Positions 1,360 to 6,110 of a stretch of DNA of 6,110 nucleotides are shown here, one piece after another. A program made the translations under genes and the position numbers. Numbering within the stretch: the stretch's first letter is position 1; each line of letters begins with the position of its first letter. The stretch spans positions 1 to 6,110 of the forward strand of contig JAFVEJ010000160.1 of NCBI GenBank assembly GCA_017476085.1, in the 5' to 3' direction. A model generated the notes under the pieces. That model was given only the letters and a program-made list of their open reading frames with translations, did not search any database and had not been told where the DNA came from. Source of the DNA: Alphaproteobacteria bacterium (GTDB taxonomy: Bacteria > Pseudomonadota > Alphaproteobacteria > RF32 > CAG-977).

Positions 1360-1896
1360 ATGTCTCGTGTTGGTAAATACCCCGTCATTGTTCCCGCAGA
1401 TGTCAAGGTTGATGTGAACGGTCAGCTTGTTAAAGTCAAAGGGAAGTTGGGTGAATTAGAATATACAGCGGCTGATGATGTTGATCTGAAGCTGGAAGAC
1501 AATAAGTTGTGGGTTGCGCCGCGCAAATCCGAAACCGGTATTAACCGTTCCTCTTGGGGAACGACCCGTGCACGTCTGAATAACCTGGTTAAAGGTGTTC
1601 ATGACGGCTTTTCCAAAAAATTGGAAATCAATGGCGTCGGTTATAAGGCGCAGGTTCAGGGCAAAATCTTGAAGATGAGCTTGGGCTTCAGTCATGATGT
1701 TGATTTTGAAATTCCCGCCGGATTAAAAGTGGCTTGTGCCACACCGACGAATGTTGAAATCACCGGTATTGACAAGCAGGCTGTCGGTCAGTTTGCCGCG
1801 ATTATCCGCGCCAAGCGTCCGCCCGAACCCTACAAAGGAAAAGGCATTAAGTACGAGGGTGAATACATCCTGCGTAAAGAAGGTAAGAAGAAGTAA
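1360..1896 (+). CDS. rplF: 50S ribosomal protein L6
   Basis: L6 sits near the factor-binding site of the large subunit, next to the sarcin-ricin loop, and is made of two similar alpha/beta domains. The 178 residues are normal length (E. coli 177). The N-terminus MSRVGKYPV, the inter-domain INGVGYKAQ at residues 90-98 and the C-terminal signature PEPYKGKGIKY at 155-165 are all present, followed by a basic tail ending KEGKKK. The ribosome-binding site is the AAGGGGGG run ending at 1350, with a 9-nt spacer. It lies 18 nt after rpsH and 12 nt before rplR, as expected for the operon. Confidence 0.98.
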   Translation: MSRVGKYPVIVPADVKVDVNGQLVKVKGKLGELEYTAADDVDLKLEDNKLWVAPRKSETGINRSSWGTTRARLNNLVKGVHDGFSKKLEINGVGYKAQVQGKILKMSLGFSHDVDFEIPAGLKVACATPTNVEITGIDKQAVGQFAAIIRAKRPPEPYKGKGIKYEGEYILRKEGKKK

Positions 1897-1908
1897 AGGG
1901 GAACGAAA

Positions 1909-2271
1909 ATGAGTAAGGCAAGAATTCAATTTGAAAGCCGTCGTATCCGTACCCGTGCTTCCCTGCGGCGTAAATCCGCCGGACGTTTGCGTTTATCCGT
2001 ATTCCGTTCGGGACAGCATATTTACGGGCAGATTATCGACGACAAGGAAGGCAAGACTTTAGCCGCCGCTTCGACGACGGAAAAAGAAGTCAAGGCTTCT
2101 GTTAAAAATGGTGCCACGGTTGCTGCCGCTGCTGTTGTCGGCAAGCTGGTTGCGGAACGTGCTCTGAAAGCCGGAGTCAAAGAAGTTTGCTTAGACCGAG
2201 GCTGATATGTTTATCACGGCCGCGTAAAAGCTTTGGCGGAAGCGGCTCGTGAAGCTGGTTTGTCATTCTAG
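1909..2271 (+). CDS. rplR: 50S ribosomal protein L18, interrupted by an in-frame TGA
   Basis: L18 binds 5S rRNA together with L5 and anchors it in the central protuberance. Residues 1-98 are a normal alphaproteobacterial L18: a basic N-terminus, [20 protein letters not shown] at 26-45, and the run up to CLDRG at 94-98. A TGA then falls where the family has the second glycine of DRGG-Y-YHGR. The same frame continues after it with [18 protein letters not shown] and LSF to a TAG at 2269-2271. Read through, the product would be 120 residues, the usual length; stopped at the TGA it is 98 and lacks the conserved terminal strand and helix. The downstream part shows no decay, so the interruption is recent, recoded, or an error in the sequence. 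The start has AGGGGA at 1897-1902. The identity is certain; its functional state is not. Confidence 0.93.
2203..2205 (+). other. in-frame TGA codon within rplR
   Basis: The codons around it read GAC CGA GGC TGA TAT GTT. The conserved residue here is glycine, so one T-to-G change at 2203 (TGA to GGA) would restore the family sequence without any frame change. The base after the stop is T; UGAU is not the classic leaky UGAC context, which argues against simple readthrough. A restart at the ATG at 2207 would give only six codons, so the 3' part is not separately translated from there. Confidence 0.9.
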
Positions 2272-2275
2272 GGGA
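2270..2275 (+). promoter_or_regulatory. Shine-Dalgarno sequence of rpsE, overlapping the natural rplR stop
   Basis: AGGGGA lies 8 nt before the rpsE ATG and shares two bases with the TAG at 2269-2271, the expected end of full-length L18. The same stop-on-SD arrangement occurs at rplX/rplE and nearly so at rplF/rplR and rpsE/rpmD. It implies that ribosomes normally finish rplR at this TAG and pass to rpsE by translational coupling. Termination at the TGA 64 nt upstream would weaken that coupling. Confidence 0.75.
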
Positions 2276-2283
2276 AAGTAATT

Positions 2284-2898
2284 ATGGCACGCACACCTAA
2301 TACAGAACGCCGCCGCGGCGGCGATAAAGAACGTGAAAACGATCAGCGCGTTGATTTTCATGCTGAACGTGATCGCGAAATGGATGAAATTGTTGACAAA
2401 CTCGTTTATGTCAACCGTGTTGCTAAAACCGTTAAGGGCGGCCGCCGTATGGCCTTTGCCGCTTTGGTGGTTGTCGGCGATCAGCGCGGCCGCGTCGGAT
2501 TTGCATCCGGCAAGGCGCGTGAAGTTCCCGAAGCAATTCGTAAGGCAACCGAGAAAGCTAAACGCGAAATGATCCGTATTCCTTTGCGTGAAGGACGGAC
2601 TTTGCATCATGACGTGCGCGGCAGATTTGGCGCCGGTGAAGTCGTTTTAAGAACGGCTCCCGCTGGTACGGGAATCATCGCGGGCGGTCCTATGCGCGCT
2701 GTTTTCGAAACAATGGGTATTCAGGACATTGTGGCTAAATCGCTCGGTTCTCAGAACCCGCATAATATGATCAAAGCGACTTTTGCGGCTTTGAAAACCG
2801 TTAATTCTCCCCGTATGATTGCGGCTAAGCGCGGTAAAAAGGTCGGCGACGTTGTCGCTGCCCGTGACGGCGCGAATGCAGCGGCTGTAAAGGAGTAA
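2284..2898 (+). CDS. rpsE: 30S ribosomal protein S5
   Basis: S5 lies at the mRNA entry side of the small subunit and takes part in decoding fidelity and mRNA unwinding. At 204 residues it has the long form seen in alphaproteobacteria, with an extended charged N-terminus (residues 1-35, rich in Arg, Glu and Asp). The N-terminal double-stranded-RNA-binding-like domain carries [14 protein letters not shown] at 43-56 and [11 protein letters not shown] at 71-81. The C-terminal domain carries [18 protein letters not shown] at 123-140. The tail is Ala/Lys-rich. It starts 12 nt after the expected end of rplR and is followed by rpmD after 4 nt. Confidence 0.98.
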
Positions 2899-3697: not shown

Positions 3698-5050
3698 ATG
3701 GCTTCTCAAATAGATAAAATGGCGACCGGATTAGGTTGGGAAACTTTTGCAAAAGCGACAGACCTTCAAAAACGTCTTCTTTTTACATTGGGGGCCATGG
3801 TCATTTATCGTTTAGGTACTTTTATTCCTCTGCCGGGGATCAATGCTGTTGTTCTGGAAGATATCTTTACCAGACAAGCCGGCGGTATTTTAGGAATGTT
3901 TAATATGTTTACAGGCGGCGCGTTGTCCCGTATGACGTTGTTCGCTTTGAATATTATGCCGTATATTTCGGCATCGATTATCGTGCAGCTGGCCGGATCC
4001 GTTTTGCCGTCTTTGATCGCATTGAAAAAGGAAGGTGAGTCAGGACATCGCAAAATGAACCAATATACTCGTTATTTAACGGTATTGATTACGATCGTTC
4101 AGGCTTACGGTTTAGCTGTCGGTTTGGAAACAATGGTCGGTTCGGCGGGAACATCCGCCGTGATCAATCCGGGGCAATGGTTCCGTTTTACGACGGTCGT
4201 TTCTTTGTTGGGCGGAACGATGTTTATCGTATGGCTGGGCGATCAAATTACTGCGCGCGGCGTCGGAAACGGTTCTTCTTTAATTATTACAGCCGGTATT
4301 ATGGCGGGCATTCCGATGGGGCTGGCTCAAACTTTTGAATTGGCCAGAGCGGGTTCTATGTCAACGCCGACTTTGTTTGCGGTGATGTTGATGGTGTTGG
4401 CGTTGGTTTATTTCGTTGTATTTATTGAACGCGCTCAGCGCCGCATTTTAATTCAGTATCCGAAACGTCAGATGGGCGGTCGTATGATGAACAGCGAAAG
4501 TGCACATTTGCCGTTAAAGCTGAATCCGACGCGCGAGCTACCGCCCATCTTTGCCAGTTCTTTGCTGTTATTGCCGATGACGATTGTTAATTTCTCGGTA
4601 AAAAGCGGCAACAGTGCGGATTGGATCGTGACATTATCAACGATTCTGGCGCATGGCCAGCCGGTTTATTTGGCGTTGTATGCCGGATTGATTATTTTCT
4701 TTACATTCTTTTATACGGCGGTTGTTTTCAATCCGGAAGACACGGCGGATAATCTGAAACGTCATGGCGGCTTTATTGCCGGTATTCGTCCGGGAAAAAG
4801 CACGGCGGAGTATTTGGATTATGTTTTAACCCGTTTGACGGTTTTAGGGTCTGCCTATTTAGCGGCAATTTGTTGTTTCCCTGAAATTATGATCGCAAAG
4901 TATTCCGTACCGTTTGTTTTAGGCGGAACGACTTTGTTAATCGTTGTGTCAGTGACAATGGAATTTGCGGCGCAAATCCAATCGCATTTAATCGCGCATC
5001 AGTATGAAGGACTGATGAAAAAGGCGAAACTTAAAGGACGCTTGAAGTGA
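3698..5050 (+). CDS. secY: preprotein translocase subunit SecY
   Basis: SecY is the channel-forming subunit of the SecYEG translocon in the inner membrane, through which unfolded secretory proteins and nascent membrane proteins pass. The 450 residues and ten predicted membrane segments (roughly 25-42, 76-98, 121-142, 162-181, 192-213, 224-243, 284-302, 322-343, 378-398, 404-421) fit the family. Hallmarks: YRLGTFIPLPGI at 37-48, the plug region GGILGMFNMFTGGALSRM at 62-79, GDQITARGVGNGSSLI at 181-196, the cytoplasmic loop PGKSTAEYLDYVLTRLT at 365-381, and the C-terminal AQIQSHLIAHQYEG at 425-438. The start agrees with the alphaproteobacterial N-terminus but has only an A-rich leader and no clear Shine-Dalgarno sequence. 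It ends in TGA, the only complete gene in the window to do so, overlapping adk by 4 nt. Confidence 0.98.
   Translation: MASQIDKMATGLGWETFAKATDLQKRLLFTLGAMVIYRLGTFIPLPGINAVVLEDIFTRQAGGILGMFNMFTGGALSRMTLFALNIMPYISASIIVQLAGSVLPSLIALKKEGESGHRKMNQYTRYLTVLITIVQAYGLAVGLETMVGSAGTSAVINPGQWFRFTTVVSLLGGTMFIVWLGDQITARGVGNGSSLIITAGIMAGIPMGLAQTFELARAGSMSTPTLFAVMLMVLALVYFVVFIERAQRRILIQYPKRQMGGRMMNSESAHLPLKLNPTRELPPIFASSLLLLPMTIVNFSVKSGNSADWIVTLSTILAHGQPVYLALYAGLIIFFTFFYTAVVFNPEDTADNLKRHGGFIAGIRPGKSTAEYLDYVLTRLTVLGSAYLAAICCFPEIMIAKYSVPFVLGGTTLLIVVSVTMEFAAQIQSHLIAHQYEGLMKKAKLKGRLK
5033..5038 (+). promoter_or_regulatory. Shine-Dalgarno sequence deciding the adk GTG start
   Basis: AAAGGA inside the last codons of secY lies 8 nt upstream of GTG at 5047. 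The alternative ATG at 5077 has no comparable purine box and would remove the first beta strand (HLVLM) that leads into the P-loop. This favours the GTG start and coupling through the GTGA overlap. Confidence 0.7.
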
Positions 5051-5709
5051 TCAGCAACGGCAAACACCTTGTTTTAATGGCTCCTCCGGGAGGCGGAAAA
5101 GGAACACAGGCGCGTTTGCTGCGTGATCGTTTGAACATACCGCATTTGTCCACAGGTGAAATGTTACGCAATGCGGGGCGTGCCGGAACGGAAATAGGGT
5201 TGCGGGCCAAGGCTTTGATTGACAAAGGCAATTTTGTTCCCGATGAAATGATTATTTCCATTATTTCTGAACGTTTGGATGAACCGGATTGCAAAGAAGG
5301 ATTCATTCTGGACGGTTTTCCCAGAACTTTGCCGCAAGCCAAGGCTTTGGATGAACTTTTGTTCGAAAAAGGCCGCCGCTTAGACCATGTGATAGAAATT
5401 CAAGTGCCGGATGATATGATTATTCAGCGTATTATCGGACGCTTTTCATGCGCAGATTGCGGCGCGATGTATCATGACACGTTAAAACCGACAAAAGTGT
5501 TCGGAAAGTGCGATGAGTGCGGCGGATCGAATTTTCTGCGCCGCCAGGATGATAACTGGCAAACGGTTGTTGACCGCTTAAAAACATACCGTATGATGAC
5601 AACACCTGTTTTGCCGTACTTTCAGCATGAAGGATTGCTTGAAACGATTGACGGCACGGGCGGTGTGGAAGAAGTCGCCGAAAAACTGAAAAAGATTATC
5701 GGACAATAA
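5047..5709 (+). CDS. adk: adenylate kinase, zinc-finger LID type
   Basis: Adenylate kinase interconverts ATP and AMP with two ADP in the cytoplasm. The 220 residues are the long bacterial form. The P-loop is APPGGGKGT at 12-20 with catalytic Lys18; LSTGEMLR at 34-41 contributes to the AMP site; DGFPRT at 89-94 carries the conserved arginine Arg93. The LID domain has four cysteines as two CxxC pairs (Cys135/138 and Cys155/158), the structural zinc site of many alphaproteobacterial and Gram-positive enzymes, followed by RRQDDN at 165-170. The gene starts at GTG in a GTGA overlap with the secY stop. The secY-adk order is common in alphaproteobacteria, but here a terminator follows directly instead of rpsM. 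Confidence 0.97.
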   Translation: MISNGKHLVLMAPPGGGKGTQARLLRDRLNIPHLSTGEMLRNAGRAGTEIGLRAKALIDKGNFVPDEMIISIISERLDEPDCKEGFILDGFPRTLPQAKALDELLFEKGRRLDHVIEIQVPDDMIIQRIIGRFSCADCGAMYHDTLKPTKVFGKCDECGGSNFLRRQDDNWQTVVDRLKTYRMMTTPVLPYFQHEGLLETIDGTGGVEEVAEKLKKIIGQ

Positions 5710-5738
5710 AAAAAGAGGCTGAGGAAAGCCTCTTTTTT
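5709..5738 (+). terminator. intrinsic terminator after adk, probably bidirectional
   Basis: AAAAAAGAGGCT (5709-5720) pairs perfectly with AGCCTCTTTTTT (5727-5738) over a 6-nt GAGGAA loop. The A-run before and T-run after make it usable from either strand. It begins at the last base of the adk stop codon and marks the end of the secY-adk unit. On the minus strand it also coincides with the stop codon (5737-5739) of a short frame, consistent with two convergent genes sharing it. Confidence 0.92.
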
Positions 5739-5853
5739 ATATATTTTTTTTCTTGATTTCAAATTCGCGTAGAATAGCAATCATGGATTTCTGTTGCTCT
5801 TCGGACAGCATGCGGATTTTTTGAACCAGAATTGCGCAACAGAAATCCGGTTT
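5737..5853 (-). pseudogene. possible C-terminal remnant of a convergent minus-strand gene
   Basis: Read on the minus strand, the frame is open from a stop at 5854-5856 to a TAA at 5739-5737. It ends in a helical, charged tail, MLSEEQQKSMIAILREFE (starting at the ATG at 5811) followed by IKKKNI. Such endings are common in small helical proteins such as helix-turn-helix regulators, but the protein is not recognisable. It ends exactly at a bidirectional terminator, which supports a real convergent gene. No upstream coding sequence continues beyond about 5850, so only the tail survives here. It could also be chance. Confidence 0.3.
5785..5848. repeat. 13-bp perfect inverted repeat with 38-nt spacer
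   Basis: GGATTTCTGTTGC at 5785-5797 is the exact reverse complement of GCAACAGAAATCC at 5836-5848. The bases flanking both arms do not pair further. One arm lies in the minus-strand tail frame and the other just before the start of recognisable methyltransferase sequence, so the repeat coincides with the apparent junction between two unrelated pieces. It may be a recombination footprint, an assembly or amplification chimera at shared sequence, or a simple hairpin. Confidence 0.6.
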
Positions 5854-6110
5854 TTAACAGAAGCAACCGTCCGCTTATGTTTTATCCTTTATATGCAGAC
5901 CCCGATAAATTGGATGTATCTCTGACTAAAACAGAAAGACATACTGTTGAAATTTATCCCAGAAATTCACTTGGCGAAGATGGTTGTTGGACATGGGGAT
6001 TTCAAAAAGCTTCTCAATTTACTGATTTATTGATTGCCAATCTTGCAAATACAGGAAAATGGAGCGTATTCAGAAAAGATTATTTAGAAGGAACCAGCCT
6101 TTTTACAAAG
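5853..6110 (+). pseudogene. fragment of a type III restriction-modification DNA methyltransferase (Mod)
   Basis: The frame is open to the window edge. From 5865 it reads NRPLMFYPLYADPDKLDVSL, then EIYPRNSLGEDGCWTWG, then LIANLANTGKWSVFRKDYLEG. This matches my recollection of the central region of type III Mod subunits, where a (RPN)MFYPLYV-P segment is followed by YPKNS-GEDGRW-WG and GKW-VFRKDYL. Mod subunits methylate adenine in the recognition sequence and guide the Res nuclease. The catalytic N-terminal part (DPPY and the AdoMet site) would lie upstream but is not there: adk and its terminator are. The first ATG (5877) has no ribosome-binding site. GC is about 35% by hand count, well below the ribosomal genes, and all three Arg codons after the ATG are AGA, against mostly CGT/CGC upstream. 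It is probably acquired DNA, truncated at its 5' end; the 3' end is cut by the window. No search was run. Confidence 0.6.

Follow-up and report, generated by a model that had tools for sequence, protein, structure and literature searches.

The sequence analysed, referred to here as the window, spans 6110 bases of a metagenome assembly from an uncultured alphaproteobacterium and most likely represents a whole contig record, with its SecY listed on one 6110-base contig. It carries rplE, rpsN, rpsH, rplF, rplR, rpsE, rpmD, rplO, secY and adk. L5, L6, L18 and S5 were named by profile, and the other genes by translation and gene order. Apart from one TGA in rplR, all ten genes are open frames, so contig quality is not poor overall. 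The interrupted gene falls into two parts:

1909..2205, plus strand: N-terminal part of rplR (L18), 98 codons up to the TGA, assigned by frame and profiles
2206..2271, plus strand: in-frame 3' part of rplR, which codes for the 21 conserved C-terminal residues of L18 and ends in a TAG stop

The rplR frame opens with ATG at 1909, meets TGA at 2203–2205 and resumes without a shift to TAG at 2269–2271. In profile searches, the 21-residue tail by itself fitted positions 94–114 of TIGR00060 (E 1.1e-07) and positions 96–116 of PF00861, which shows that the frame past the TGA is no chance frame. This confirmed the initial annotation, which had read the frame as stopping at 2203–2205 and the in-frame tail as the end of L18; its argument that the undecayed downstream part excludes an old pseudogene also holds. 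The truncated L18 stays under the NCBIfam cut-off (74.8 versus 87.85 bits), and the form with X at the stop passes TIGR00060 at 115.9 bits, covering positions 7–114 of 114. In the PDB, 67 distinct sequences match the read-through L18, and the best bacterial chains reach its last residue, although these matches say nothing about the cause of the TGA. The organism itself most likely makes an ordinary L18 of 120 residues.

L18 in related genomes and protein databases

Scanning genome contigs with S5 yielded 568 relatives; the 80 best loci were retained. The top locus (L001) is from the alphaproteobacterium UBA2903, whose family is represented here by 12 genomes. Eleven of these match window positions 1360–2898, the closest being G008 (92% over 1539 bases), followed by G006 (90%). 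G008, the nearest genome compared, is most likely another species. For the operon alignment we used eight relatives, seven family genomes and L001, which are 77–90% identical to the window (G008, 90% over the operon); G003, G004 and G005 lie outside this alignment and served solely in the unseen-residue test described below.

The L18 frame passes the site in all eight aligned relatives. The codon at the TGA site is GGA in G008, G006, G011, G012 and G001, and GGT, GGG or GGC in the other three. With PF00861, we found exactly one L18, at this locus and with no internal stop, in 11 of the 12 family genomes; the remaining one, G007, gave no PF00861 match. Among the 80 loci, 79 cover the DRGG motif in which the TGA falls (projected from G008 by tblastn), and none has a stop there. 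The initial annotation had considered a natural shorter L18 shared by related genomes; when rplR was aligned, the relatives did not end at this codon (8/8 aligned, 11/11 profile matches, 79/79 loci).

We also searched a protein database with the 98-residue L18 and with the form carrying X at the stop, and took the best 120 of 7295 and of 7998 matches, respectively. Among the 166 distinct L18 proteins listed, 165 are 112–122 residues long. The exception, P0158, has 100 residues, is 65% identical and ends just past the same motif; it may be a partial sequence. This single protein among the matches listed is what speaks for a naturally shorter L18. Against it, the truncated form does not reach the family cut-off, and the tail is undecayed. 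The related idea of a broken copy accompanied by a second intact rplR elsewhere meets a single match, at this locus, in 11 of 12 family genomes, and none in the twelfth. We regard both versions as having almost no probability. The 98-residue L18 of the window itself is absent from the best matches listed (best 120 of 7295 and 7998) and could belong to the P0001 cluster. P0001 is an intact L18, 98% identical and found on three contigs; it equals the G008 L18 plus one Asn, and therefore does not prove that an intact copy exists in the same species.

Two patches of transversions in rplR and secY

Comparison with G008 revealed that the TGA does not stand alone. The following features are relevant:

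2193..2205, plus strand: error-like patch 1, in rplR, three transversions relative to the nearest relative G008 (2193, 2199 and 2203)
2226..2226, plus strand: synonymous transversion in rplR; its GTA codon is absent from the eight aligned relatives
4532..4546, plus strand: error-like patch 2, in secY, six transversions relative to G008

The rplR genes of the window and G008 differ at 11 positions. Three of these are the patch transversions, which lie within 11 bases; the rest of the gene contributes seven transitions and the transversion at 2226, all synonymous. The change at 2226 may be part of the patch or natural. Within the patch, the change at 2193 causes F95L, that at 2199 produces CGA and that at 2203 creates the in-frame TGA at codon 99, at sites where the eight aligned relatives have TTT or TTC, CGC and GGN and the window has TTA, CGA and TGA. 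This CGA is the sole one among the 141 Arg codons of the window, and the G008 L18 protein is identical to that of the window except for the two patch changes. The TGA is thus not an isolated nonsense change, as the positions 2193 and 2199 are also aberrant.

Column 95 of L18 is F in 88 of 88 related loci; among the 166 distinct database proteins listed, 165 have F and one (P0133) has L. The TGA itself replaces a glycine of the DRGG motif, as the initial annotation had it, but this is the second and less conserved of the two. Of 88 related loci, 65 have G at the second position (next listed S 13, A 6 and P 3), compared with 75 of 79 for the first, where the other four have S. Likewise, the 166 database proteins listed have G 114, A 35, S 8, P 4, Q 3 and E 2 at the second position and G in all 166 at the first. 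In its family assignment and its place between rplF and rpsE, the gene is an ordinary uL18 gene (TIGR00060/PF00861), full length with X; what sets it apart is the TGA that interrupts the frame at codon 99, together with F95L, and both lie in the patch.

In secY, five of the six transversions fall in codons 279–281 and turn GVI into REL, and the sixth is synonymous. The motif TGVIPP consequently appears as TRELPP in the window. Across 77 related loci, SecY residue 279 is Gly in 77, residue 280 is Val in 77, and residue 281 is Ile in 73 and Met in the rest. Among 120 SecY database proteins listed, 118 have TGVIP, one has TGVNP, and TRELP occurs only in the window's own entry. The window SecY is already in the protein collection with its odd motif (P0167); its 90% cluster has eight member sequences, and the odd motif was verified in one of them.

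We asked how far such changes extend by projecting relatives (72–90 loci per gene, of 91) on the ten window proteins and counting the 1755 columns with 40 or more relatives. Only seven window residues, the stop included, are not shared by any relative; five of these are inside the two patches: L18 95, L18 99 (the stop) and SecY 279, 280 and 281. The other two, L15 93 and SecY 269, sit at more variable columns. In the remaining 1748 columns, the window residue is seen in relatives. Two further stretches, 4367–4397 in secY and L15 93–97, were considered as extra patches. Only L15 V93 was unseen, at a variable column, and both stretches were therefore taken as ordinary divergence.

The patches also stand out by substitution type. 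All nine differences from G008 inside them are transversions, compared with 159 of 558 elsewhere (Fisher p 1.5e-5, with patch limits drawn post hoc). Transversions private to the window were more tightly clustered than in all 20,000 permutations, which were run over the coding columns that do not vary among relatives, for spans of 11 and 13 bases and with either the six closest or all eight relatives. For a span of 36 bases and all eight relatives, the permutation gave p 0.0001. All private changes pooled also cluster, with p from 0.0001 to 0.016 depending on the span and relative set. The permutation is silent on rplR alone, because its maximum is the secY patch; moreover, only 2199 and 2203 counted for rplR, since relatives carry either T or C at column 2193. 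Outside the patches, the ribosomal genes differ from those of G008 mostly by synonymous changes; in S5, 51 are synonymous and one is nonsynonymous.

Decoding of UGA and origin of the patches

UGA can be recoded in several ways, including insertion of selenocysteine, UGA readthrough and the UGA-to-Gly codes of some uncultured bacteria. The window resembles such cases in that conserved coding sequence continues past a TGA in frame. It differs from them in that the TGA is single and unconserved, UGA serves as a stop, and RF2 exceeds its cut-off in 11 of 12 relatives and SelB in none. The rplR TGA is the sole in-frame TGA in 1801 codons, all eight Trp codons of the window are TGG, and GGN codons are in normal use. 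A second TGA terminates a gene of the same window:

5048..5050, plus strand: TGA stop codon of secY, the same in 8/8 aligned relatives

TGA is thus a normal stop here. The in-frame TGA in rplR is conserved in none of the eight aligned relatives, 11 L18 profile matches or 79 loci.

RF2 scored over the cut-off in 11 of the 12 family genomes. In G002, the RF2 profile gave a 269-bit match plus two fragments on one contig; the 269-bit match is perhaps RF1, and the two fragments may be a split RF2. The RF2 match contains one internal TGA in G001, G005 and G009, which may be the known RF2 frameshift site, and an internal TAG and TAA in G003. SelB was over the cut-off in none of the 12 family genomes, with sub-threshold matches in all 12; among controls, 2 of 14 were over the cut-off and weaker matches occurred as well. 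Scanning the window against Rfam with E up to 1 yielded three matches below threshold (5240–5298 and 5706–5778), none of them near the TGA, a result of limited value.

The initial annotation had listed readthrough with insertion at UGA among its options, and this gained no support. If the TGA were real and decoded by a near-cognate or suppressor tRNA, full-length L18 would be made, and the undecayed, L18-typical frame past the TGA would be explained; a sequence error, however, predicts an identical undecayed tail. No stop occurs at the site in any relative examined (8/8 aligned, 11/11 profile matches, 79/79 loci), the TGA is the only one in frame in 1801 codons while TGA terminates secY in the window and 8/8 relatives, and RF2 and SelB are over cut-off in 11 and 0 of 12 family genomes, respectively. 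Nor would readthrough account for the secY patch or F95L, and we consider it exceedingly unlikely. Reassignment of UGA to glycine or another amino acid in this lineage could appeal to one TGA at an often-glycine position. One TGA per 1801 codons, exclusive use of TGG for Trp (8/8), normal use of GGN, the secY stop shared with 8/8 relatives and RF2 over cut-off in 11 of 12 genomes make this vanishingly improbable.

The TGA is, very probably, a local consensus error of the 6110-base metagenome contig. As the nearest genome (G008) is only 92% identical and likely another species, the error is deduced from sequence comparison. That the TGA belongs to a small patch of wrong letters is most likely because a second patch lies in secY and both genes are intact in relatives. 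Error is favoured over mutation because the two patches hit nearly fixed residues in a window in which 1748 of 1755 columns are normal. A living cell would hardly acquire two such patches by mutation, whereas a local consensus error could readily produce them. The initial annotation had envisaged an error of one base, T for G. Error is indeed the best supported explanation, but it would have to encompass at least three transversions in rplR as well as the secY patch.

The patches are confined, consist of transversions only and lie in genes that are intact in relatives; we infer an origin outside the cell, in the reads, the library or the assembly. The contig consensus would have gained three transversions in an 11-base stretch of rplR, one creating a stop, and six in a 15-base stretch of secY, breaking a conserved motif. 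Candidate routes are a single low-quality read where coverage is thin, a local misassembly or a library chimera. The substitution types within the patches are mixed. Metagenome assemblies are described as holding local assembly errors without any supporting read, with 13 in one 1.13-Mb genome (PMC7111523). The patches resemble the errors described there as a short odd consensus in a good contig that yields false protein sequence; the cases in that account are defined by a lack of read support, and the patches here were recognised by sequence comparison. Sequencing errors are also described as increasing toward read ends, with motif bias (PMC4787001), but the rise and bias described in that account would not alone explain the patches.

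Clustered substitutions do occur in nature, and the patches could be real DNA, the product of recent clustered mutation, for example by template switch, in a minor or dying lineage that chanced to be assembled, with a truncated L18. The secY sequence offers something in favour of this: the 11 bases at 4540–4550 are the exact inverse complement of 4470–4480 and cover three derived bases, and adding two distant inverted matches of 10–11 bases covers all seven differing secY sites. Cover of seven sites by inverted words of at least 10 bases was reached by 37 of 5540 placements, with the word length chosen post hoc. The nearby inverted match is nevertheless weak, as it was equalled by 63 of 2000 random placements, and a library chimera would look identical to the inverted-copy pattern. 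The three sites of the rplR patch have no inverted match of at least 8 bases. This patch shares direct words with 5378–5386 (9 bases) and 5715–5722 (8 bases), a type of cover that is common (2228 of 5540 placements for 8 bases and 3185 of 5540 for 9 bases). Real mutation would further require two events in one 6-kb stretch, each in an essential gene and at nearly invariant residues, in a background in which most other ribosomal-gene differences are synonymous (S5, 51 versus 1; L18, no others beyond the patch). A real mutation cluster is therefore possible but strained, and we consider it unlikely. That the patches are real and the bacterium survives by UGA readthrough or with a 98-residue L18, while tolerating a SecY without its GVI residues, is very unlikely.

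With local consensus error as the preferred explanation, the locus carries a caution: when a core gene on a metagenome contig shows a lone in-frame stop, this can mimic recoding. Checking the whole contig for residues unseen in relatives exposed the second defect, and this points to the sequence rather than to biology. Unseen residues at conserved columns, combined with clustering and the share of transversions, could serve as a screen for public contigs.

The region downstream of adk

The region after adk is variable, and the window tail (5710–6110) was matched by none of the seven relatives compared at E 1e-3. Judged by reading frames, adk is followed by rpsM in G011 and by an unnamed gene common to G006, G009 and G001; in G012 it is followed by a frame that we take to start like a Cas9 (KYVLGLDLGETSLGWSVIE).

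In the window, an open frame at 5832–6110 runs off the end. It has no Pfam or NCBIfam match, and 14 plasmid records match it; the eight plasmid matches listed show 37–42% identity and are annotated as site-specific DNA-methyltransferase. By eye, we noted a 13-base inverted repeat, with arms at 5785–5797 and 5836–5848, at the meeting point of the methyltransferase-like plus-strand frame and a frame on the minus strand that ends SEEQQKSMIAILREFEIKK. This inverted-repeat site (5785–5848) could be a junction. Directly past adk, 5709–5738 form a terminator-like hairpin with a T run, where the Rfam matches are only sub-threshold. Window positions 5745–5825 have a 78% match elsewhere in G001.
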